This document shows positions 982 to 18,479 of a stretch of 25,752 nt of DNA, piece after piece. Source of the DNA: a virus; the IMG/VR virus record IMGVR_UViG_3300007540_000089, positions 1-25,752 of that record; one strand, 5' to 3'. Under the pieces are notes generated by a model. That model did not search any database. It was not told the origin of the DNA and was given only the letters and a program-made list of their open reading frames with translations. How positions within the stretch are numbered: the stretch's first letter is position 1; every line of letters starts with the position of its first letter. The position numbers were made by a program, and so were the translations under genes.

Positions 982-1653
982 ATGAAATTAGAGATAAGCA
1001 TACCAACAAAACTAAGCGAAATAAAATTATCACAGTATCAAAAGTTTTTAAAGATAGCTGATGGTAATATTGACAATGAATTACTTCATCAAAAGATGGT
1101 TCAAATATTTTGTGGAATTGATTTAAAAGATGTAGCTGAAATAAGGTATAAGGATGTACTTGAAATAACTGCATCGCTTGGATTAATGTTTGAAAATAAA
1201 AACCATAGATTTATCAATAGATTTAAAATGGGTGGTGTTGAATTTGGATTCATACCTAATTTAGAAGACATATCATTTGGTGAATATACTGATTTAGATA
1301 CGTATTTAAACGATTGGACGCAAATGCACAAAGCAATGGCAGTATTATATCGACCAATCAAAAAGAATGGCTTAAACGGCACATATGAGATTGAGAAATA
1401 TAATGGTTCAATTACTTATTCAGATGTAATGAAACACGCTCCTTTAGATGTTGTTCTTGGTGCTAATGTTTTTTTTTACAATTTAAGCAACGAATTATTG
1501 AACAGTACGATGACTTATTTGGAGGAGAATCAGGAGGTACAGAATATTCTCAAGTCACAAACTTCGGTAGAAAATGGGGATGGTACTCTTCATACTATGC
1601 TATCGCTAAAGGAAACCTTGAACGATTTGATTATATTTCAGAATTACCGTTAA
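982..1653 (+). CDS. Tail assembly chaperone-like protein, zero-frame product
   Basis: The start is taken as ATG 982 (MKLEISIPTKLSEIKLSQYQ), not an upstream start at 934, because the extra residues are encoded by T-rich leader sequence. The zero-frame product is 223 residues. Position ahead of the tape measure and the N-terminal sequence suggest a tail assembly chaperone of Bacteroidota siphophages. The last ~58 zero-frame residues look poorly organised, whereas the -1 frame from the T9 run at 1469-1477 carries a well-formed domain (see next entry). The gene is therefore probably expressed as two proteins sharing about 165 N-terminal residues, like lambda G and G-T. A sequencing error in the T run is the competing explanation. 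Confidence 0.65.
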   Translation: MKLEISIPTKLSEIKLSQYQKFLKIADGNIDNELLHQKMVQIFCGIDLKDVAEIRYKDVLEITASLGLMFENKNHRFINRFKMGGVEFGFIPNLEDISFGEYTDLDTYLNDWTQMHKAMAVLYRPIKKNGLNGTYEIEKYNGSITYSDVMKHAPLDVVLGANVFFYNLSNELLNSTMTYLEENQEVQNILKSQTSVENGDGTLHTMLSLKETLNDLIIFQNYR

Positions 1654-1733
1654 CACAATGTTTGACATATTTAACATTTGAAAAAGAAAAGAATAAAATT
1701 GAATCAGATTTAATAAAAAGACAAAATAAATGA
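1476..1733 (+). CDS. -1 frame extension of the tail assembly chaperone
   Basis: From 1476 the -1 frame is open for 85 codons to TGA 1731-1733. It contains FGRKWGWYSSYYAIAKGN, followed by a hydrophobic helix and a Lys/Glu-rich end. I recall the GWY...I.A.GD-like motif from Bacteroidota phage tail chaperones. Entry from the zero frame could occur at the slippery heptamer T_TTT_TTT (1470-1476) inside G-T9-A. The resulting fusion would be about 250 residues. The stop overlaps the ATG of the next gene (ATGA at 1730), which is normal gene packing and supports this as the true end. If the T run is really ten bases, the two frames are one ordinary gene. Confidence 0.7.
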   Translation, partial: LQFKQRIIEQYDDLFGGESGGTEYSQVTNFGRKWGWYSSYYAIAKGNLERFDYISELPLTQCLTYLTFEKEKNKIESDLIKRQNK

Positions 1734-2182
1734 GTACATTCTACGAAATAACAACTAAGATAAAAGACCAACTAGAACTTGATAAGTTTGTAAATACAGT
1801 TACAATAGGCGACATCTTTAAAGTTGATTTAAACAAGCAAACTATATTTCCATTAAGTCATATAATAGTTAATAATGTATCTTATCAAGGCAATATTTTA
1901 GTTTATAATGTATCTATTTTATCTATGGATATTGTGGATGAAAGCAAGGATATGGTTACAGATATATTTTTAGGAAATGACAATGAGCAAGATGTATTAA
2001 ATACTCAGCTATCAGTAGCTAATAGGTTCTTAGAAATATTAAGAAGAGGAACATTGGCAGATGATTATGAACTAATTGGAAATCCAAACATTGAGTTTTT
2101 TGTAGAACGATTTGAAAACAAATTAGCAGGTGTTACTTATACGTTTGATATGGCGATTGCAAATACAATGACAATATGCTAG
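1730..2182 (+). CDS. Conserved tail-completion-like protein (150 aa)
   Basis: The start MSTFYEITTKIKDQLELDKF overlaps the -1 frame stop of the chaperone. Conserved-looking blocks are VNTVTIGDIFKVDL, KQTIFPLSHIIVNN and LGNDNEQDVLNTQLSVANR. I recall these blocks from a protein found in Bacteroidota siphophages between the tail chaperone and a gp10-like protein. A role as tail terminator or neck protein is inferred from size, position and company, not from a recognisable fold. No membrane or signal segments. It overlaps the following gene by seven bases. Confidence 0.6.
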   Translation: MSTFYEITTKIKDQLELDKFVNTVTIGDIFKVDLNKQTIFPLSHIIVNNVSYQGNILVYNVSILSMDIVDESKDMVTDIFLGNDNEQDVLNTQLSVANRFLEILRRGTLADDYELIGNPNIEFFVERFENKLAGVTYTFDMAIANTMTIC

Positions 2183-6103: not shown

Positions 6104-6246
6104 TAAAAAACATCTTAGAATTATTAGCATTGCAAGAACATTATAATCAATCTGAAAACATAGAAATTGCAAAAGGGAAATATAAATTAGTAACTACTTG
6201 GAAACAAGGATTTGAACAAATAAAAAGAATATGGAAAATAAGGTAG
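6100..6246 (+). CDS. Small protein before the tape measure (48 aa)
   Basis: Starts MIKNILELLALQEHYNQSEN inside the end of the tip gene (ATGA overlap). It ends 16 bases inside the tape measure gene, so it fills the only gap between the two. It is helical, with aromatic residues in KLVTTWKQGFEQIKRIW. Bacteroidota phages often carry a small gene at this place. Function unknown; a chaperone-like or minor tail role is conceivable from position only. Confidence 0.55.
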   Translation: MIKNILELLALQEHYNQSENIEIAKGKYKLVTTWKQGFEQIKRIWKIR

Positions 6247-8120
6247 TTAATTTAAAAGTAAATTTAGGCTCATCTGAAGAGGACTTAAAAAACCTTGGTG
6301 ATGCATTTAAAAAAGTAGATAAAGAAGCTACTAATTTAGATGCAACATTTGAGGAGATATACGGTGATTTAAAACCTTTAACTGCTCGAATGGGTGAACA
6401 AGAAGATAGGCTTTATGAATTAGCAAAAGCGGGGAAACAAAGTTCACAAGAATATAAAGACTTATTAAAATCAGTTGGTGAATATAAAAGAGTTCAGCAA
6501 CAAACAGATTTAATAGTTGATGCATCTGCTCAAACATTAGGAACGAAACTGTCAGGTTCTTTAAATGCGGTTGCAGGTGGTTTTTCATTAGCACAAGGAG
6601 CGGTTGGATTATTTGGTACAGAATCTGAAAACGTAGAAAAAGCTATTTTAAAAGTTCAATCTGCAATGGCTATAAGTCAAGGATTCGAAACTATAAATCA
6701 AGGCTCTAAAAGCGTTAAAGCATTAGGAGAAACAATAAAAGCAACTACTGTATTTCAGAAATTGCAAACTGCTGCAACTGCTGCTCAAACATTTGTAACC
6801 AATGGAGCGACATTAGCAACTAAGGCTTTAAGAGGTGCTTTAGTAGCTACGGGAATAGGTGCTTTAGTTGTTGGTGTAGGTTTGTTAATTGCTAATTTTG
6901 ATAAAGTTAAAAAGGTAATTTTAAATTTAATTCCTGGACTTTCTAAAGTTGGTGATTTCATTGGTAGTATAGTAGATTCTGTTACTGATTTTGTAGGTGC
7001 AACTTCAGATGCTAGTAGAGCGTTAGATAAATTAAAAGCAAATGCAGATAAAACTTTATCAGTAAATAAAAAATTCTTACAAGAACATTCTGACCAAATA
7101 GATGAATATACTAAGAAAAAGATTGAAGCTAAAAATGCATACTCCGAAGCAGTAAAAGAAGAAGGTGCTGACCAAATTGCATTAGCTAAAAAACTCAATA
7201 GAGAATTAGCCGCCATAGAATATTCACGTGGTGATGAAAAAAGAAAAATACAAAAAGAAAATGATGATAAACTAAAAGCAGATAGAAAAGCAAAATCAGA
7301 AAAAGATAAAGCAGATAGAGAAGCAGAAACTAAAAGGTTAAAAGATGAAAAATTAGCTGAAGAAATGCAATCGGCTAAAGATGCTTTAGCTATTCAAAAA
7401 GCATTACAAGAATCACAAGAAACACCAATACAAAAAGAACAAAGAGAATATTTAGAAAAGAAAGCTATATTAGAAGCTAATAATGTAGATACTGAACTAT
7501 TAACTAAAACGCATAATGACGCTATTAATAAGCTAAATATAGATAGTTATGTAGCAGATTTTGAAGCAACAAAAAAGAAAACTGAAGACGAAAAGGAACA
7601 ATCTGACGCAAGAAAGAAAATAATTGAAGCAGAATATGCTTTTAAAATAGGTCAGGCTAGAGAAGCAAGTGCAGTATTAGGTCAATTATCTGAATTAGCA
7701 GGAAAAGAAACTGCTGCGGGTAAAGCATTAGGGATTGCAAGTGCTACGATAAATACCTATGTGGGTGTATCTGAAGCATTAAAACAAAAATCAACCCTAC
7801 CATCTCCTTTTGATGTTGTCGCTAAAGTTGCCAATGTAGCTACTATTTTAGCTACGGGTTTTAAAGCAGTAAGAGCAATTACTTCAGTTAAAGTTCCTGG
7901 AGGCGGTGGTGGTGGTTCTGCTCCAAGTCCAATATCAGTTCCTAACGCTACTGCTCCATCTGCACCTCAGTTTAATGTAGTTGGAACAAGTAACACAAGT
8001 CAATTAGCACAATCAATAGGACAAAAAGATGCAACACCTATAAAAGCATATGTAGTAAGTAATGATGTAAGTACGCAACAAGGATTAGATAGAGCAATTG
8101 TAAAAACTGCAACTTTATAA
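6231..8120 (+). CDS. Tape measure protein (629 aa)
   Basis: A long helical protein that sets tail length and is threaded through the tail tube. It starts MENKVVNLKVNLGSSEEDLK. It has Ala/Gly-rich amphipathic stretches, a hydrophobic segment near residues 207-225 (GIGALVVGVGLL), and a long Lys/Glu/Ala coiled coil around residues 335-480. A Gly run near residue 557 is followed by a Pro/Ser/Thr-rich tail. This arrangement is typical of siphophage tape measures. At about 0.15 nm per residue the length would predict a tail near 95 nm. ATG 6231 is inside the preceding 48-residue gene. No terminator follows; a homing endonuclease gene comes next. Confidence 0.85.
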   Translation: MENKVVNLKVNLGSSEEDLKNLGDAFKKVDKEATNLDATFEEIYGDLKPLTARMGEQEDRLYELAKAGKQSSQEYKDLLKSVGEYKRVQQQTDLIVDASAQTLGTKLSGSLNAVAGGFSLAQGAVGLFGTESENVEKAILKVQSAMAISQGFETINQGSKSVKALGETIKATTVFQKLQTAATAAQTFVTNGATLATKALRGALVATGIGALVVGVGLLIANFDKVKKVILNLIPGLSKVGDFIGSIVDSVTDFVGATSDASRALDKLKANADKTLSVNKKFLQEHSDQIDEYTKKKIEAKNAYSEAVKEEGADQIALAKKLNRELAAIEYSRGDEKRKIQKENDDKLKADRKAKSEKDKADREAETKRLKDEKLAEEMQSAKDALAIQKALQESQETPIQKEQREYLEKKAILEANNVDTELLTKTHNDAINKLNIDSYVADFEATKKKTEDEKEQSDARKKIIEAEYAFKIGQAREASAVLGQLSELAGKETAAGKALGIASATINTYVGVSEALKQKSTLPSPFDVVAKVANVATILATGFKAVRAITSVKVPGGGGGGSAPSPISVPNATAPSAPQFNVVGTSNTSQLAQSIGQKDATPIKAYVVSNDVSTQQGLDRAIVKTATL

Positions 8121-8160
8121 ACAAAAAACAATTTAATTTATTTTGATAATAAAAACATTT

Positions 8161-8712
8161 ATGGCTTTAGTATATCAACATTTAAAACCTAGTGGAGAAG
8201 TTTTTTATATTGGAATAGGAATATCTAAAAAAAGAGCATATTCTAAATATGGTAGAAATAAACATTGGAGTAATACGGTTAATAAATATGGTTATGAAGT
8301 TCAAATTTTAACTAATAATATTAACTATGAGTTTGCAAAAGAAATAGAAAAAAACTTAATTTCTTATTATGGAAGAAAAGATTTAGAAAGAGGTAAATTA
8401 GTAAATATGACAGATGGAGGAGAGGGTTTTCTAAATATGAATCCAGAAGAGAGATTAAAAAGAAAAATAAAATTAACAAATTATAATAAAAATATAAAAG
8501 ATTACTCTTTCACTCAAGACGAAACTTATAAATTAAATATGAGAAAGTCTTGTTTAGGAAAAAATAATAAAAAAATAATAGATATAGAAACTAAAATGAT
8601 TTTTAAATCAATGCGAGAAGCATCTGAATTTAGTAAAATAAATTACACAATATTAAGTGGTATGTTAAATAATAAAAAAATTAATAAAACAAATTTAAGA
8701 TGGCAGAATTAG
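8161..8712 (+). CDS. GIY-YIG homing endonuclease with NUMOD1-like C-terminus
   Basis: ATG 8161 (MALVYQHLKPSGEVFYIGIG) is preferred over an in-frame TTG at 8143. Residues 4-18 hold the GIY-YIG signature (VYQ...FYIG). It continues through a KKRAY basic stretch, a helix with AKEIEKNLISYYG and the NMTDGGEG motif that closes the catalytic domain in this class. Residues 138-180 (IDIETKMIFKSMREASEF onward) look like a NUMOD1 DNA-binding element. It is a free-standing selfish endonuclease, not a virion protein, placed between the tape measure and the protease. Its last 13 bases overlap the protease gene. Confidence 0.85.
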   Translation: MALVYQHLKPSGEVFYIGIGISKKRAYSKYGRNKHWSNTVNKYGYEVQILTNNINYEFAKEIEKNLISYYGRKDLERGKLVNMTDGGEGFLNMNPEERLKRKIKLTNYNKNIKDYSFTQDETYKLNMRKSCLGKNNKKIIDIETKMIFKSMREASEFSKINYTILSGMLNNKKINKTNLRWQN

Positions 8713-9293
8713 AAACAATAGAATTGTATATTGATGAAAACATAGAGAAAGAAGGTATTGATGCTCTTAGCTTGGTTAAATTTCCAGCAATAGAAGAAAA
8801 TTGGGTGGCATTAAATAATCATAGAATTGAGTTTAAATCGGTTGATGAAGAAAAAAGAATAATTATAGGATTAGCTTTAGTTCCAGATAAATTAATTTAT
8901 AGAAGAAATGGAGAACACGAATATAATATTAAGTTTTCAAAAGAAACTGTAAAAAAAGCGGGTCAATTATATTTAAAAAGACTAAACAATAATAATGCTA
9001 CATTAGAGCATACTACAAATGTAAAAGGAGTATCGGTTGTGGAATCTTGGATTGTAGAAAATCCATTATTAGATAAAACTGCTATTTATAATTTAAATGC
9101 GGTTGAAGGGGCTTGGGCAGTAATTATGAGTATTGACAATGATAAAGTTTGGGAAGAAATAAAAAACGGAACTTATTTAGGAATAAGTGTCGAAGGATAT
9201 TTTTCGGACAAACTAGAAATGAGTTTACAAGCTGAAAAAGAAAATGAATTAATAGAAAAAATAAAATCAATAATTTTAAAAAATGGCAAATAA
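8700..9293 (+). CDS. XkdF-like prohead serine protease
   Basis: A 197-residue protein matching the Peptidase_S78_2 (XkdF) pattern: LIYRRNGEHEYNIKFSKETV, then LEHTTNVKGVSVVESWIVE, then AWAVIMSIDNDKVWEEIKNG and LGISVEGYF. By analogy with HK97-type prohead proteases, His104 (LEHT) and Ser163 (GISVEG) are the likely catalytic pair. It would cleave scaffold and capsid protein during prohead maturation and lies just before the scaffold-like and capsid genes. A C-terminal helical tail (EMSLQAEKENELIEKIKSII) may help its incorporation. The start lies inside the homing endonuclease gene; its stop overlaps the next gene. Confidence 0.8.
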   Translation: MAELETIELYIDENIEKEGIDALSLVKFPAIEENWVALNNHRIEFKSVDEEKRIIIGLALVPDKLIYRRNGEHEYNIKFSKETVKKAGQLYLKRLNNNNATLEHTTNVKGVSVVESWIVENPLLDKTAIYNLNAVEGAWAVIMSIDNDKVWEEIKNGTYLGISVEGYFSDKLEMSLQAEKENELIEKIKSIILKNGK

Positions 9294-9468
9294 AACAAGT
9301 TCACCAAAAGGTGGAAAAAGAGGATGTCTTTGTAAAGATGGTAAATACAGTCAAAAATGTTGCAATGGTGAACTATCTGAACAAGGTATAGGTTCATTAA
9401 TTCAGCAACAAAACTCAACTATTACAGTAATAGATGGAGTACGTACAACAGTTAGAAGTAATGGCTAA
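9283..9468 (+). CDS. Small cysteine-rich conserved phage protein (61 aa)
   Basis: Begins MANKTSSPKGGKRGCLCKDG and has a C-x-C and CC arrangement (GCLCKDGKYSQKCCNGE) followed by QGIGSLIQQ. I recall this short KRGCLC...KCC.G...QGIG protein from Bacteroidota siphophages, usually among head genes. The four cysteines could bind a metal or form disulfides. Function unknown; co-location with protease, scaffold and capsid suggests a head role. Confidence 0.6.
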   Translation: MANKTSSPKGGKRGCLCKDGKYSQKCCNGELSEQGIGSLIQQQNSTITVIDGVRTTVRSNG

Positions 9469-9515
9469 TTTATAACAAAAATAAATAACATTAATTAATA
9501 TAAAAAAATACACTT

Positions 9516-10067
9516 ATGAGCGTAATAAATGAAATTAAAACACTTTTGGGAATGGAGGTAAAACTTGCCCAAATGAAACTAATGGATGGAGTGACTGTTA
9601 TTGAAGCAGATTCTTTTCAATTAGATAATGCAGTATTTATTGTAAATGGCGAGGAAAGAGTTCCAATGCCTATTGGTGAATACGAATTAGAAGATGGTAA
9701 TATCTTAAAGGTAGATGTTGAGGGAATCATTGCTGCAATTGAACCAGCTACTGAGGAAGAGCCTGCTAATGAAGAACCATTGGCTACTCCTGCTGAACAA
9801 GAAATGGAAGCAGAACCTAATGCGCCTAAAAAAATTGTTGAATCAGTTTCTAAAGAGATTTTCTTTGCAGAAATTGAAAAATTAAGAACTGAAATTGCTG
9901 AATTAAAATTAGCAAAAGAAGTTATTAAAGAAGAATTAAGTGCAGATGTAGTTGTTGAACCATTAACACATTCACCTGAAACTAAGTCGGAAGTTAAATT
10001 AAACAAAATATCAACTAATCGCCAAATGACTACTCAAGATAGAGTTATGGCACAACTTTTTAAATAA
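9516..10067 (+). CDS. Putative capsid scaffold protein (183 aa)
   Basis: Starts MSVINEIKTLLGMEVKLAQM. It has a short beta-like domain with GEYELEDGNILKVD, a long acidic Glu/Pro/Ala stretch (residues ~73-103), a coiled coil (FFAEIEKLRTEIAELKLAKE) and a polar C-terminus. An acidic, coiled-coil protein encoded just upstream of the major capsid gene is the usual picture of a scaffold. It would be removed by the neighbouring XkdF-like protease. The leader contains TTAATATAAAAAA (9495-9507), which recurs before the gene at 12039. Assignment is from composition and position. Confidence 0.65.
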   Translation: MSVINEIKTLLGMEVKLAQMKLMDGVTVIEADSFQLDNAVFIVNGEERVPMPIGEYELEDGNILKVDVEGIIAAIEPATEEEPANEEPLATPAEQEMEAEPNAPKKIVESVSKEIFFAEIEKLRTEIAELKLAKEVIKEELSADVVVEPLTHSPETKSEVKLNKISTNRQMTTQDRVMAQLFK

Positions 10068-10073
10068 TAAAAT

Positions 10074-11027
10074 ATGGCTACTACTACAAGTATTACTACT
10101 ACTTATGCTGGTGAATTTGCAGGAAAATATGTTTCTGCTGCATTACTATCAGGTTCAACTATCGCAAATGGCGGTATTGAAGTAAAACCAAATGTAAAAT
10201 TCAAAGAAGTAATTAAGAAACTAAGTTCAGACGCTATTGTAGCTGATGCAACTTGTGATTTCAATGCTACTTCTACAATTACATTAACAGAAAAAATTCT
10301 ACAACCAGAGGAATTTCAAGTAAATTTACAACTTTGTAAAAAAGATTTCCGTTCAGATTGGGAAGCGGTATCAATGGGGTATTCTGCTTTTGATTCTTTA
10401 CCAAAATCATTTGCTGATTTCTTACTGGCTCACGTAGTTGCTAAAGTTGCACAAAAAACTGAACAAAACATTTGGAAAGGTGTTACTGCTAATGCAGGTG
10501 AATTTAACGGATTCGCTACATTGTTATCTTTAGACGCTGGCTTACCTGCTGCTCAAGAAGTTGCTGGAACAACTGTTACTGCTTCAAATGTTATCGTTGA
10601 ATTAGGTAAAATTGTGGATGCAATTCCTGCTGCATTGTATGGAAAAGAAGATTTATATCTTTATGTTTCTCAAAACGTAGCTAGAGCATACGTAAGAGCA
10701 TTAGGTGGATTTGGAGCATCAGGATTAGTTTCTGCTGGTACTAATGATATGGGTACACAATGGTACAATAATGGTTCACTTTCTTTTGATGGTGTAAAAA
10801 TCTTTGTTGCCGATGGTTTAGCTGCTAATACTGCAATTGCTGCTGAGAAATCTAACTTGTATTTTGGTACAGGATTACTTTCTGACAATAATGAAGTAAA
10901 AGTAATTGATATGGCTGACATTGATGGTTCTGAAAATGTAAGAGTAGTAATGAGATTTACTGCTGGTGTTCAATACGGAATTGTTTCTGACATTGTAACT
11001 TACGGAATCGTTAACGCTGCAAACTAA
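10074..11027 (+). CDS. Major capsid protein, HK97-type
   Basis: A 317-residue protein, rich in Ala, Gly, Ser and Thr and low in charge. Blocks typical of capsid proteins of Bacteroidota siphophages are VKFKEVIKKLSSDAIVADAT, LQLCKKDFRSDWEA, TEQNIWKG, DLYLYVSQNVARAYVRALGG and VRVVMRFTAGVQYGI. The order (long helix, beta-rich P domain, A domain, C-terminal strand) suits an HK97 fold, though this is inferred. It follows the scaffold-like gene by six bases and is followed by a strong terminator (11056-11087), as expected for an abundant product. Codons are comparatively GC-rich, consistent with high expression. Confidence 0.85.
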   Translation: MATTTSITTTYAGEFAGKYVSAALLSGSTIANGGIEVKPNVKFKEVIKKLSSDAIVADATCDFNATSTITLTEKILQPEEFQVNLQLCKKDFRSDWEAVSMGYSAFDSLPKSFADFLLAHVVAKVAQKTEQNIWKGVTANAGEFNGFATLLSLDAGLPAAQEVAGTTVTASNVIVELGKIVDAIPAALYGKEDLYLYVSQNVARAYVRALGGFGASGLVSAGTNDMGTQWYNNGSLSFDGVKIFVADGLAANTAIAAEKSNLYFGTGLLSDNNEVKVIDMADIDGSENVRVVMRFTAGVQYGIVSDIVTYGIVNAAN

Positions 11028-11055
11028 TAACAATTAGATAATTAAATTAAAAGAT

Positions 11056-11087
11056 GGGCAGTTTGCTTTTTGCTTTCTGCCCTTTTT
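11056..11087 (+). terminator. Rho-independent terminator after the major capsid gene
   Basis: GGGCAG (11056-11061), a 15-nt T-rich loop, then CTGCCC (11077-11082) and TTTTT. It follows the capsid stop by about 30 nt. The HNH gene starts only 7 nt after the T tract. Confidence 0.85.
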
Positions 11088-11093
11088 AAAACA

Positions 11094-11393
11094 ATGATAG
11101 TTTGCGAGTATAAACATTGTGACAATTTATTTGAATATAAATCAAATAAAAAGTTTTGCAGTAGAAGGTGCAAAGAAAGAAGTAAGGAATCAAGAACTTG
11201 TTCAAAAAGACCTTATAGATTATTTGTAGCAGATAAATGCTCAAATTGTGGATTTATACCAATACATATTTGTCAATTAGATGTTGACCATATAGATGGT
11301 AATAGAAATAATAATAACATTTTAAACCTTCAAACTCTTTGTGCTAATTGTCACAGATTGAAAACGTACTTAAACAAAGATTGGATTAAATAA
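11094..11393 (+). CDS. Free-standing HNH homing endonuclease (99 aa)
   Basis: The true start is taken as ATG 11094, because the frame open from 11070 includes the terminator stem. The N-terminus has CEYKHC (4-9) and CSRRC (22-26), a zinc-finger-like pair. The C-terminal half is an HNH domain with CSNC (49-52), DVDHIDGNRNNNN (63-75) and CANCH (83-87). It is a metal-dependent DNA-nicking or cutting enzyme of the mobile-intron type. It is inserted between the major capsid terminator and the major tail protein gene, a usual landing place for such elements next to conserved virion genes. Confidence 0.88.
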   Translation: MIVCEYKHCDNLFEYKSNKKFCSRRCKERSKESRTCSKRPYRLFVADKCSNCGFIPIHICQLDVDHIDGNRNNNNILNLQTLCANCHRLKTYLNKDWIK

Positions 11394-11424
11394 TCTTTTT
11401 TATTAACTTTAAAAAATATAAAAA

Positions 11425-11943
11425 ATGGCGTGCGATATAACACTAGGAAGAACGGAACAATGTAAAGATTCCAATGGAGGTCTTAGAGCAGTATATTTTG
11501 TAAATTGGGGAGATGCAACAGGTTATACAATTGTTGACGATTCAATTACTGCTGCTGCTGGTACACCTTCAGCATACAAATATGAACTAAAAGGAACAAG
11601 TTCATTCGAACAAACAGTTACAAGTTCAAGAGAAAACGGAACTACATTTGTTTCTCAAAAATTGACATTAGATTTAAAAAAATTAAGTGCTGCTGACCAT
11701 AAGCAAGTAAAACTTTTATCTTATGGAAGACCACAAGTAATAATCGAAGATAATAACGGAAATCATTTTCTTGCAGGATTAACTAAAGGATGTGACTTGG
11801 TTTCTGCTACTATTTCAACGGGTGCAAATCTTGGAGATAAAAGTGGTTATTCTTTAGAATTTGATGGAATGGAACCAATTGCTGCAAACTTCATCACGGG
11901 TGATTTAACTACTGTTGGATTTACAATTGTTGCGGGAGTATAA
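11425..11943 (+). CDS. Major tail (tube) protein
   Basis: A 172-residue protein starting MACDITLGRTEQCKDSNGGL. It is beta-rich (VYFVNWGDATGYTIVDD, SSFEQTVTSSRENGTTFVSQ) and ends in short strands (AANFITGDLTTVGFTIVAGV). The N-terminal C-DIT.GR.E.CKD pattern is one I associate with tail tube proteins of Bacteroidota siphophages. It has its own terminator with a UUCG tetraloop (11966-11992), fitting a highly expressed product. It is separated from the other tail genes (982-8120) by the head genes, which is unusual. Confidence 0.75.
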   Translation: MACDITLGRTEQCKDSNGGLRAVYFVNWGDATGYTIVDDSITAAAGTPSAYKYELKGTSSFEQTVTSSRENGTTFVSQKLTLDLKKLSAADHKQVKLLSYGRPQVIIEDNNGNHFLAGLTKGCDLVSATISTGANLGDKSGYSLEFDGMEPIAANFITGDLTTVGFTIVAGV

Positions 11944-11965
11944 TTTATTTTTATTTGTTTTTTTT

Positions 11966-11992
11966 AAAGGGTGTCTTCGGGCATCCTTTTTT
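11966..11992 (+). terminator. Rho-independent terminator with UUCG loop after the major tail gene
   Basis: AAAGGGTGTC (11966-11975), loop TTCG (11976-11979), then GGCATCCTTT (11980-11989). This pairs over 10 bp with two G-U wobbles, followed by more T. The tetraloop and T tract make it one of the clearest terminators in the window. Confidence 0.9.
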
Positions 11993-12038
11993 ATTTAAAA
12001 CAATTTTCAATTTTAATTATTAATATAAAAAATATTAT

Positions 12039-12467
12039 ATGATAATTTTAAAGCAACAAACAGAACCACAATTAATATACTTTATTCCTAGAGAATATAC
12101 TGCTTCGGCTTTGAGTTTAAGAAATGAAACTACTGGTGAAATAGTGATATATTATACTGCTGATGCTATTTATAAATTAATTGATAGAACTTTATTAGAA
12201 GGAGGTAATTTTGAAGCTAAAGAATGCTTAATAAATAGTTTTGATTTAATAGATACTTATTTTCAACAAGAAGATTATTTTTTAAAAATATCAATACCAT
12301 TAACTTTAACAGAAAATACTTTCTATAATTTAAATATTTTCAACAAAGATAAGGTTATTTATAAAGATAAAGTTTTTTGTACTAACCAAGTAATAAAAGA
12401 CTTTACAGTTAACGAAAATCAATACGTAGAGAACAATACAACGAACGAATTTATAATATATGAGTAA
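12039..12467 (+). CDS. Putative virion protein with DGG-type motif (142 aa)
   Basis: Begins MIILKQQTEPQLIYFIPREY, with beta-rich halves on either side of a short motif at residues 44-71 (IDRTLLEGGNFEAKECLINS). The motif is a diverged copy of that found twice in the large tip protein and once in the protein at 14807. Position between major tail protein and portal suggests a minor virion component. The leader holds TTAATATAAAAAA (12020-12032), shared with the scaffold gene. It overlaps the portal gene by eight bases. No family name recalled. Confidence 0.5.
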   Translation: MIILKQQTEPQLIYFIPREYTASALSLRNETTGEIVIYYTADAIYKLIDRTLLEGGNFEAKECLINSFDLIDTYFQQEDYFLKISIPLTLTENTFYNLNIFNKDKVIYKDKVFCTNQVIKDFTVNENQYVENNTTNEFIIYE

Positions 12468-14238
12468 TATATCAGTTCTTAATTTATCGGCTTACACAAG
12501 CCCTACAATTCAAGAAAATAAGAAAAACAATTACGTAGAATATGGCTCAGAAAATAACTACTTTCAATATTTAATTGATAGATATTTATATTCAGCCACA
12601 AATGGAGCAATCATTACAGGTGTATCTAATATGATATACGGTAAAGGATTGGATGCTTTAGATTCTAACCATAAACCAAACGAATACGCACAATTTAAGT
12701 CTATTGTAAAAGATTCAGATTTAAAGAAAGTTATCTTAGAGCGTAAACTTCTAGGTATGGCTGCAATGCAAGTTGTAAAAGAAAAAGGAGTAGTTAAACA
12801 AGTACTTCATTTTCCTATGCATACATTAAGAGCAGAGAAATGCAATGATAAAGGACAGATTGAAAATTGGTATTACCATAATAATTGGGCTGAAAAGAAA
12901 CCTAATGAAGTAATTAAAAAGATTCCTGCTTTTGGATTTGGTAATGGTAATGAAGTAGAATTGTATGTTATTAAACCTTATGTATCGGGTTTTGATTATT
13001 ATAGTCCGATTGATTATAGCGGTTCATTGCCTTATGCATTACTTGAAGAAACTATTGCTGATTATCAAATTAATGATTGCCAAAATGGATTCTCAGGAAC
13101 TAAAGTAATAAACTTCAATAACGGAGTTCCATCTGAGGAAATGCGTGATAAAATGAAGAGTGATGTGCTGCGTAAATTAACAGGTTCAAGAGGTGAAAAG
13201 GTAATTGTAGCTTTTAATCAAAATGCTGAATCAAAAACAACAGTTGAAGATTTGCCTTTAAATGATGCACCTCAACACTATGAATATTTAAGTAAAGAAT
13301 GCTTTGATAAGTTGATTGTAGGTCATAGAGTTACTTCGCCAATGTTGTTAGGAATACGCACAGGTGATGGTGGTTTAGGTAACAATGCAGACGAAATTAA
13401 GACTGCTACGCTATTAATGGACAATATAGTAATTAAACCATACCAATTAGAAATAATAGACGCAATTGATGAAATTTTAGCAGTTAACGATATATCATTA
13501 AAACTTTATTTCAAAACTATCCAACCTTTAGAATTTGTAGATACTGATGGAATGAATGCTGAAACTAAAGAAGAAGAAACAGGTGTTAAAATGAGTGCTG
13601 AAAATTCAATTGAATTAGATGAATTTATTGATTTAAAAGGTGAGGTTTTACCTGACAATTGGGTTTGTGTTGACGAAACTGAAGTAGATTACGAAACTGA
13701 GGAAGAATTGGATAATGAAATTAATTCTTTAAATAAAAAATCAGTTTTATCTAAAATATATGACTTTGCTACATCTGTTGGTTCTAGACCAAATGCAAAA
13801 TCTGAACAAGATAAAGAAATTGATGGTTTTAAATTTATCACTAGATATTCATATACTGGTAATGAATCACCTGAAAGAGAATTTTGTAAAAAAATGATGT
13901 CCGCAAGTAAAAACGGTAGAGTTTATAGAAAAGAAGATTTAGAAAATGTAAATTCTAAAGTTGTAAATGATGGTTTTGAGCATAACAACGAGCCTTATAA
14001 TATCTTTCTTTATAAAGGTGGTGCTAGATGTCATCATAAATTTTTAAGAAAAACTTTTGTAAATATGGAAGGTGTTAAAATAGATGTCAACAATCCACAA
14101 GCAAAAACTATTTCAGTAGCAAAAGCAGAAAAATATGGTTATAGAATCAGAAACAAAAAAGAGGTTGCTATGATGCCGAATGATATGCCTTTGAAAGGAT
14201 TTCACCCTGATAATAAAAACTTACCTAAAGACGTATAA
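12460..14238 (+). CDS. Portal protein with extra C-terminal Cys/His domain (592 aa)
   Basis: The first ~365 residues have portal features: YFQYLIDRYLYSATNGAIIT, GVSNMIYGKGL, KVINFNNGVPSEEMRDKM and the helical LTSPMLLGI-like block (VTSPMLLGIRTGDGGLGNNA). It would form the dodecameric channel for packaging and tail joining. A linker rich in Glu (366-425) leads to a second domain (456-540): RYSYTGNESPEREFCKKMMS, VYRKEDL, YNIFLYKGGARCHHKFLR. Its conserved-looking C476 and C524-H525-H526 could bind metal. The two-part layout is one I recall from Bacteroidota phages; what the C-terminal domain does is unclear to me. The portal follows the capsid and tail genes instead of terL. Confidence 0.8.
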   Translation: MSNISVLNLSAYTSPTIQENKKNNYVEYGSENNYFQYLIDRYLYSATNGAIITGVSNMIYGKGLDALDSNHKPNEYAQFKSIVKDSDLKKVILERKLLGMAAMQVVKEKGVVKQVLHFPMHTLRAEKCNDKGQIENWYYHNNWAEKKPNEVIKKIPAFGFGNGNEVELYVIKPYVSGFDYYSPIDYSGSLPYALLEETIADYQINDCQNGFSGTKVINFNNGVPSEEMRDKMKSDVLRKLTGSRGEKVIVAFNQNAESKTTVEDLPLNDAPQHYEYLSKECFDKLIVGHRVTSPMLLGIRTGDGGLGNNADEIKTATLLMDNIVIKPYQLEIIDAIDEILAVNDISLKLYFKTIQPLEFVDTDGMNAETKEEETGVKMSAENSIELDEFIDLKGEVLPDNWVCVDETEVDYETEEELDNEINSLNKKSVLSKIYDFATSVGSRPNAKSEQDKEIDGFKFITRYSYTGNESPEREFCKKMMSASKNGRVYRKEDLENVNSKVVNDGFEHNNEPYNIFLYKGGARCHHKFLRKTFVNMEGVKIDVNNPQAKTISVAKAEKYGYRIRNKKEVAMMPNDMPLKGFHPDNKNLPKDV

Positions 14239-17920: not shown

Positions 17921-18104
17921 TTTTCCCTAAAATTTTTGTTCGCTTATTTTAATTTATTTTTGTTTACTTATTTTAAATATATTTTTTAGTTATTTATTTA
18001 GTTTTTAAGAACATTACAAATTTACAGTTTTTTTTTGACAAAATTGCAATGATTTAAATAAAGTTATTAACCGAAATGTTTAAAACGTAATATTACATTT
18101 GTAT
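17921..18104. other. Gene-free AT-rich spacer between lysis genes and ninG-like gene
   Basis: About 180 bases of very AT-rich sequence with many T runs. No hairpin terminator and no convincing small gene are visible. It ends in the -7 box at 18094-18101. Confidence 0.5.
18094..18101 (+). promoter_or_regulatory. Promoter -7 box TACATTTG, possibly giving a leaderless mRNA
   Basis: TACATTTG matches TAnnTTTG. If the box spans about -11 to -4, transcription starts at 18105, the A of the ATG of the NinG-like gene. No -33 TTG is evident. Confidence 0.45.
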
Positions 18105-18479
18105 ATGAAGAAACCTACTCGTAAATCTTTAGTTACAAAACTAGATACTGTGTTTAGTCAATACATAAGACGCAAGGATGCGGTGAATGATATTGCTGAG
18201 TGTATTACTTGTGGTAAAAAAGACCATTATAAAAAATTGCAATGTGGTCATTTTATGAGTAGAAGACATTACTCTACTAGATGGGATGAGAATAATGTTG
18301 GTGTTCAATGTTATGGTTGCAACATCACTAATCAGGGTCAACAATATATTTTTAGTCAATATCTTGGTAATAACTTATCTGAAGAAATGTATTTAAAATC
18401 AAAACAAATAGTTAAATTTGCTGATGTAGATTTAATTGATATGATTGATTATTATACTGAAAAGGTTTCTATGTTATAA
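18105..18479 (+). CDS. ninG: NinG/Rap-like recombination nuclease (124 aa)
   Basis: ATG 18105 is preferred; an in-frame TTG at 18099 overlaps the -7 box. The protein carries a zinc-binding HNH-like core: C33-x2-C36, LQCGHFMSRR (Cys47, His49) and C69-x2-C72 (VQCYGCN). The GHF.SR...RW.E.NV..QC..CN pattern is that of lambda NinG (Rap), a structure-specific nuclease acting on recombination intermediates. It is the only gene between the lysis block and the accessory array. It probably cooperates with the ERF protein at 21518, although an independent HNH role cannot be ruled out. Confidence 0.75.
   Translation: MKKPTRKSLVTKLDTVFSQYIRRKDAVNDIAECITCGKKDHYKKLQCGHFMSRRHYSTRWDENNVGVQCYGCNITNQGQQYIFSQYLGNNLSEEMYLKSKQIVKFADVDLIDMIDYYTEKVSML

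Follow-up and report, generated by a model that had tools for sequence, protein, structure and literature searches.

How a gene is read when its conserved coding sequence changes frame part of the way along is the question raised by a locus in a 25,752-nucleotide (nt) stretch of viral DNA from IMG/VR (record IMGVR_UViG_3300007540_000089, positions 1 to 25,752; hereafter the window). An open reading frame (ORF) beginning at ATG 982, the start that has an equivalent in relatives, rather than the TTG at 934, encodes 223 amino acids (aa) and ends in TGA (1651-1653), while a second ORF in the −1 frame is open from 1467 to a TGA at 1731-1733 (translation LQFKQRIIEQYDDLFGG...FGRKWGWYSSYYAIAKGN...KRQNK). 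The two meet at an uninterrupted run of nine T bounded by G1468 and A1478. Because a TAA at 1464-1466 closes the −1 frame upstream, any frame switch must be confined to the T run. An earlier note, made from the letters alone, had described this layout, which we confirm, and had proposed a programmed −1 frameshift in a tail assembly chaperone at the heptamer T_TTT_TTT, which does lie in phase within the run. We find that the programmed switch is strongly supported by comparison with relatives (338 of 338 scorable), and we weigh below which machine makes it and what the gene is for.

We searched IMG/VR with the two halves of the gene separately and found more than 550 candidates encoding a relative of each half. 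In a first set, exactly nine T and the −1 relation were present in all 104 distinct sequences covering both halves, a set that takes in a near-identical virus from independent assemblies (L003-L005) and the isolated Nonlabens phages P12024L and P12024S. Later profile searches extended the family, made up of hundreds of aquatic Flavobacteriia phages, to relatives at ~30% protein identity in the N-terminal part, and 338 of the 341 distinct sequences of the final set had an unbroken T9 or T10 at the corresponding position, with the same −1 relation. The search patterns lay mostly outside the run and did not force T runs, because those containing FFY were back-translated degenerately, with both TTT and TTC allowed. 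Elsewhere in the relatives' contigs, runs of at least nine T occur only 50 times in 2.07 Mb. A profile search of about 790 Bacteroidota genomes added no further true copy beyond the seed, its sole weak match being a false one beside fusA.

The three exceptions are a continuous-ORF homologue (L368) and two records listed as plasmids, Escherichia fergusonii pEF06 (NZ_CP040811.1; T7) and Lysinibacillus pakistanensis LZH-9 (CP045836.1; T8). The shortened runs in these two look like homopolymer undercounts, since they fall at the slip site and are accompanied by broken ORFs. Separately, both records look like one same Bacteroidota-type phage and are probably contamination.

These comparisons bear on two explanations that need no programmed switch. 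The first, raised in the earlier note, is that the true run is T10 and the gene a single continuous ORF, miscounted or decayed into a pseudogene. Homopolymers are error prone, as the T7 and T8 records attest, and a distant sister family does have one continuous ORF; however, T9 and two frames are seen in the independent assemblies as well as in all other close relatives, the 338 scorable relatives contain no T7 or T8, no TTC interruption and no in-frame fusion, and the zero frame is selected beyond the site. The independent assemblies and the relatives together exclude a miscount, and we give error or decay a vanishingly small probability. The second is phase variation, in which replication slippage would toggle the gene in and out of frame. 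This would suit a long homopolymer within a coding region, but the same absence of any in-frame version speaks against it, as do the constraint on the zero-frame tail and the fact that changes between T9 and T10 go with a moved codon phase that preserves the −1 relation; we consider it very improbable.

If the frames are joined at the run, the fused product has 250 aa, and homologues of this trans-frame protein exist as single proteins. Its profile aligned over 233 columns with proteins of Duneviridae (FPSV-D15, laban6-1, Ingeline) and Bacteroides phage BT-TP2, crossing the junction and continuing through to the C-terminal domain (97.4% and E 1.1e-11 in one comparison), a homology seen at the level of profiles, with single sequences alone matching weakly. 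These proteins are homologous to the trans-frame product from end to end, but each is encoded by one uninterrupted ORF of 270-301 aa without a T9 run. Relatives of this continuous-ORF family recovered from IMG/VR were matched in one piece along most of the protein, the result expected if each ORF is continuous. An apparent T6C frameshift in one homologue, that of Flavobacterium phage 6H (L366, KC959568.1; 10048-10927, minus strand), was rejected: its −1 frame stops at once, after RCFFYSTR, and phages ~96% identical have one continuous ORF, so this interrupted copy is either broken or mis-sequenced.

The fused homologues also argue against translation of the −1 ORF as a separate protein, through re-initiation or internal initiation, which is how GenBank annotates P12024L and P12024S (gp40 and gp41 in P12024L). 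In the window, the −1 frame has no ATG, GTG or TTG ahead of its conserved block, in 77 of 82 representatives it has no ATG there, and the conserved −1 residues (LxFRxR) start right at the T run. We find this reading barely credible. As an aside on annotation, gp40 and gp41 of P12024L (L001, 1501-2195; NC_018272.1) are halves of one frameshift gene and should be joined.

We next consider the stretch that both frames share. Past the T run, the zero frame stays open for ~56 codons (~170 nt) on average in all 82 divergent representatives, whereas only 0.15% of 659 windows in the single-coding part of the gene are open in the equivalent frame; the overlap's third frame contains a mean of 6.8 stops. 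When codons were resampled so as to preserve the −1 protein, the zero frame stayed open with a median probability of 0.5%. Diversity by codon position was flattened in the overlap (0.355/0.261/0.334) relative to the flanks (0.379/0.261/0.562 upstream and 0.308/0.200/0.471 after the overlap), and close relatives behaved likewise. The overlap of ~56 codons is thus protein-coding and under selection in both frames. Since both frames are constrained and the fused product is homologous end to end to single ORFs, the sequence evidence establishes one gene (982-1733) for two predicted proteins, of 223 and ~250 aa, with a common N-terminal domain. Selection on both frames and the continuous-ORF sister family are additions to what the earlier note had seen. 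In nearly all members the slip site is accordingly not near the 3' end of the short ORF, lying ~170 nt, or ~56 selected codons, from the zero-frame stop, compared with a mean of 26 nt in SEA-PHAGES genomes (PMC10885494). The long zero-frame tail is not universal, because the Nonlabens phages have a far shorter one, with the slip site nearer the stop.

The architecture and position of the gene make it probable that it encodes a tail assembly chaperone. It is followed by tail-module genes, with the probable tape measure gene fifth, and in Cellulophaga phage Ingeline the single-ORF homologue lies three genes ahead of the annotated tape measure gene; a major tail protein was not recognised in the window. 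The 'tail protein' family phrog_166 was matched weakly by 31 of 82 members. AlphaFold2 (AF2) models the N-terminal domain with confidence (block means of the predicted local distance difference test, pLDDT, 88 or more to residue 170), gives the zero-frame tail low confidence and predicts a helical C-terminal domain. The two halves are at present filed apart, as phrog_32199 and phrog_38404 in PHROGs and as separate hypothetical proteins in GenBank.

We then asked what makes the switch. The sequence pattern points, with somewhat better than even odds, to transcriptional slippage on T9. RNA polymerase would realign on the nine T, a length matching its 9-10 bp RNA:DNA hybrid, so that a share of mRNAs gains one extra U (or loses two); normal translation of these mRNAs would then yield the long form, a ~250-aa protein ending in an 85-aa helical C-terminal domain read from the −1 frame. 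If the pair works as lambda gpG/gpGT does, the tape measure protein would be coated by the short form, and the tail tube protein would be brought in by the long form, the less abundant of the two. Chaperone function, RNA polymerase as the slipping machine and the product ratio are all three things we infer.

The observations behind this preference concern the length of the run. Relatives fall into five phase/length classes (GTT TTT TTT TAY; ATT TTT TTT TTG; ATA TTT TTT TTT TGG; TTA TTT TTT TTT CTG; AGT TTT TTT TTT CGT), which cover three codon phases, with at least 14 changes between classes by parsimony, and the run is never shorter than nine. Among genuine members of the commonest phase, the heptamer is always followed by T, though the residue varies among Tyr, Leu, Phe, Trp and Ser; a C at that position is confined to runs that, in another phase, have already reached nine or ten. 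No TTC occurs within the run, although ~21% of Phe codons outside it are TTC (P about 3e-14 if the 65 clusters are taken to be independent). Comparison of 82 sequences with shuffles showed no local RNA structure (z of +0.26 downstream and +0.12 upstream). In vivo, nine A or T support efficient slippage by bacterial RNA polymerase, whose hybrid spans 9-10 bp (PMC5009743); the E. coli enzyme requires at least seven T, and poly(T) makes it slip more than poly(A) does (PMC6260861). In E. coli, U_UUU_UUU is much less shifty on the ribosome than A_AAA_AAG (PMC5009743). We favour transcriptional slippage because a run of at least nine is conserved over phase, no local RNA structure was detected, the length matches the polymerase hybrid and U_UUU_UUU is a weak ribosomal site.

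The alternative closest to the earlier note is programmed −1 ribosomal frameshifting, in which two tRNA-Phe in the P and A sites would slip together on T_TTT_TTT (1470-1476) to give a G/GT pair as in lambda. The heptamer is in phase in every relative, and avoidance of TTC in favour of TTT may help tRNA-Phe to re-pair. An all-T site is also used in the E/E+E' frameshift of phage P2, TTTTTTG. HIV has an all-U −1 site, U_UUU_UUA (PMC5009743), and tail chaperones are the standard setting of −1 frameshifting (PMC4493119). A heptamer of this kind needs no T before or after it, yet the run is always nine or ten long; U_UUU_UUC or other heptamers never substitute, and both the failure to detect structure near the site and the low shiftiness of U_UUU_UUU count against the ribosome. 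The heptamer proposed in the earlier note is present and in phase, but the ribosomal mechanism that it implied is not established, since what is conserved is a length of at least nine, not a phase, and the search for local structure turned up no RNA stimulator. We put ribosomal frameshifting clearly below an even chance, while regarding it as a strong rival because T9 contains the in-phase heptamer and two-frame protein constraint gives part of the T richness.

The wider proposition is that programmed RNA polymerase slippage on T9 or T10, not ribosomal frameshifting, gives a large family of phages its short and long tail-assembly proteins, whose two alternative C-terminal ends share ~170 nt of coding sequence. 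We hold it tentatively, at just under even odds. Several points weigh against the reading that we favour. Ribosomal frameshifting is the mechanism assumed for the tail chaperones known so far. Ribosomal slippage is compatible with the sequence alone, because any run of at least nine T holds T_TTT_TTT in phase, and conserved residues (V/I/L-F-F-Y in frame 0, L/F in frame −1) explain part of the T richness. The parsimony count of class changes comes from a quick tree with 34 weak branches, and the starred branches force fewer changes. On the side of function, the two-product −1 architecture and the syntenic single-ORF homologue make the name given in the earlier note plausible, but hidden Markov model and fold searches gave no confirmation: a Pfam search of the gene found no match, searches of the PDB by sequence and fold with both halves found nothing convincing (a known fold is still possible), and BFVD returned mostly unnamed phage proteins, with one annotated tail assembly chaperone at a weak E of 0.16.

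The closest known systems compare with the gene as follows. Like lambda gpG/gpGT and TP901-1 gpG/gpT, it is one gene with a short product and a −1 extended product that have a common N-terminal domain, and it sits in a tail module, ahead of the tape measure gene; unlike them, it is separated from that gene by several others, and no similarity to solved chaperones could be detected in sequence or fold. With P2 E/E+E' it shares an all-T heptamer, the −1 direction and a tail gene, but here the run is T9-T10 with its length conserved, never a T6 heptamer. The TP901-1 site is GGGAAAG (PMC4493119), in contrast to T9/T10 here. Programmed transcriptional slippage on nine A or T is known from Thermus dnaX and from Shigella mxiE, spa33 and mxiA (PMC5009743), which resemble the present gene in an uninterrupted homopolymer of about nine, in truncated and full products and in needing no RNA structure, and differ from it in the long dual-coding overlap found here. 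Searches of an open-access library gave no account of a frameshift in this gene's family or of slippage-driven tail chaperones. The family adds a large unannotated group of tail genes with two products, from aquatic Bacteroidota phages, and offers a natural comparison of shifted with fused gene forms, and its strict rule, nine or ten T in any codon phase, makes the question of ribosome or RNA polymerase directly testable. Were polymerase slippage true, transcription could set a structural ratio that has been attributed to translation.

Table 1 Coordinates of the frameshift gene, its parts and selected downstream genes in the window
Feature	Position	Strand	Evidence
Zero-frame ORF, 223 aa: shared N-terminal domain of ~165 aa and zero-frame-only tail of 58 aa (G-like short product)	982..1653	+	phrog_32199 match, E 7.8e-15; AF2 pLDDT 86
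T9 run, slip site	1469..1477	+	T9/T10 in 338/338 scorable relatives
In-phase heptamer T_TTT_TTT, contained in any run of at least nine T	1470..1476	+	Sequence
−1 frame extension, 85 aa, WGWY motif; would yield the ~250-aa trans-frame product (GT-like)	1476..1733	+	AF2 pLDDT 85, helical; no ATG/GTG/TTG ahead of conserved block
Dual-coding overlap, protein-level constraint in both frames	1478..1653	+	Codon-position diversity, open-frame tests
Following gene, 150 aa, overlapping the −1 ORF at ATGA; tail-module protein (phrog_30964)	1730..2182	+	
Probable tape measure protein, 629 aa, encoded by the fifth gene downstream of the frameshift gene	6231..8120	+	phrog_1535/1538/3336 tape measure, E 2e-4 to 7e-4

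The surroundings of the gene have features of their own. The frameshift gene comes soon after the terminase end in the record, and the gene order is unusual in that the tape measure gene lies upstream of the capsid and portal genes (6231-14238). By eye, an ORF at 8143-8712, between the tape measure gene and the next gene, resembles a GIY-YIG homing endonuclease, and two small ORFs (11070-11393 and 18099-18479) carry Cys/His patterns resembling those of HNH endonucleases.
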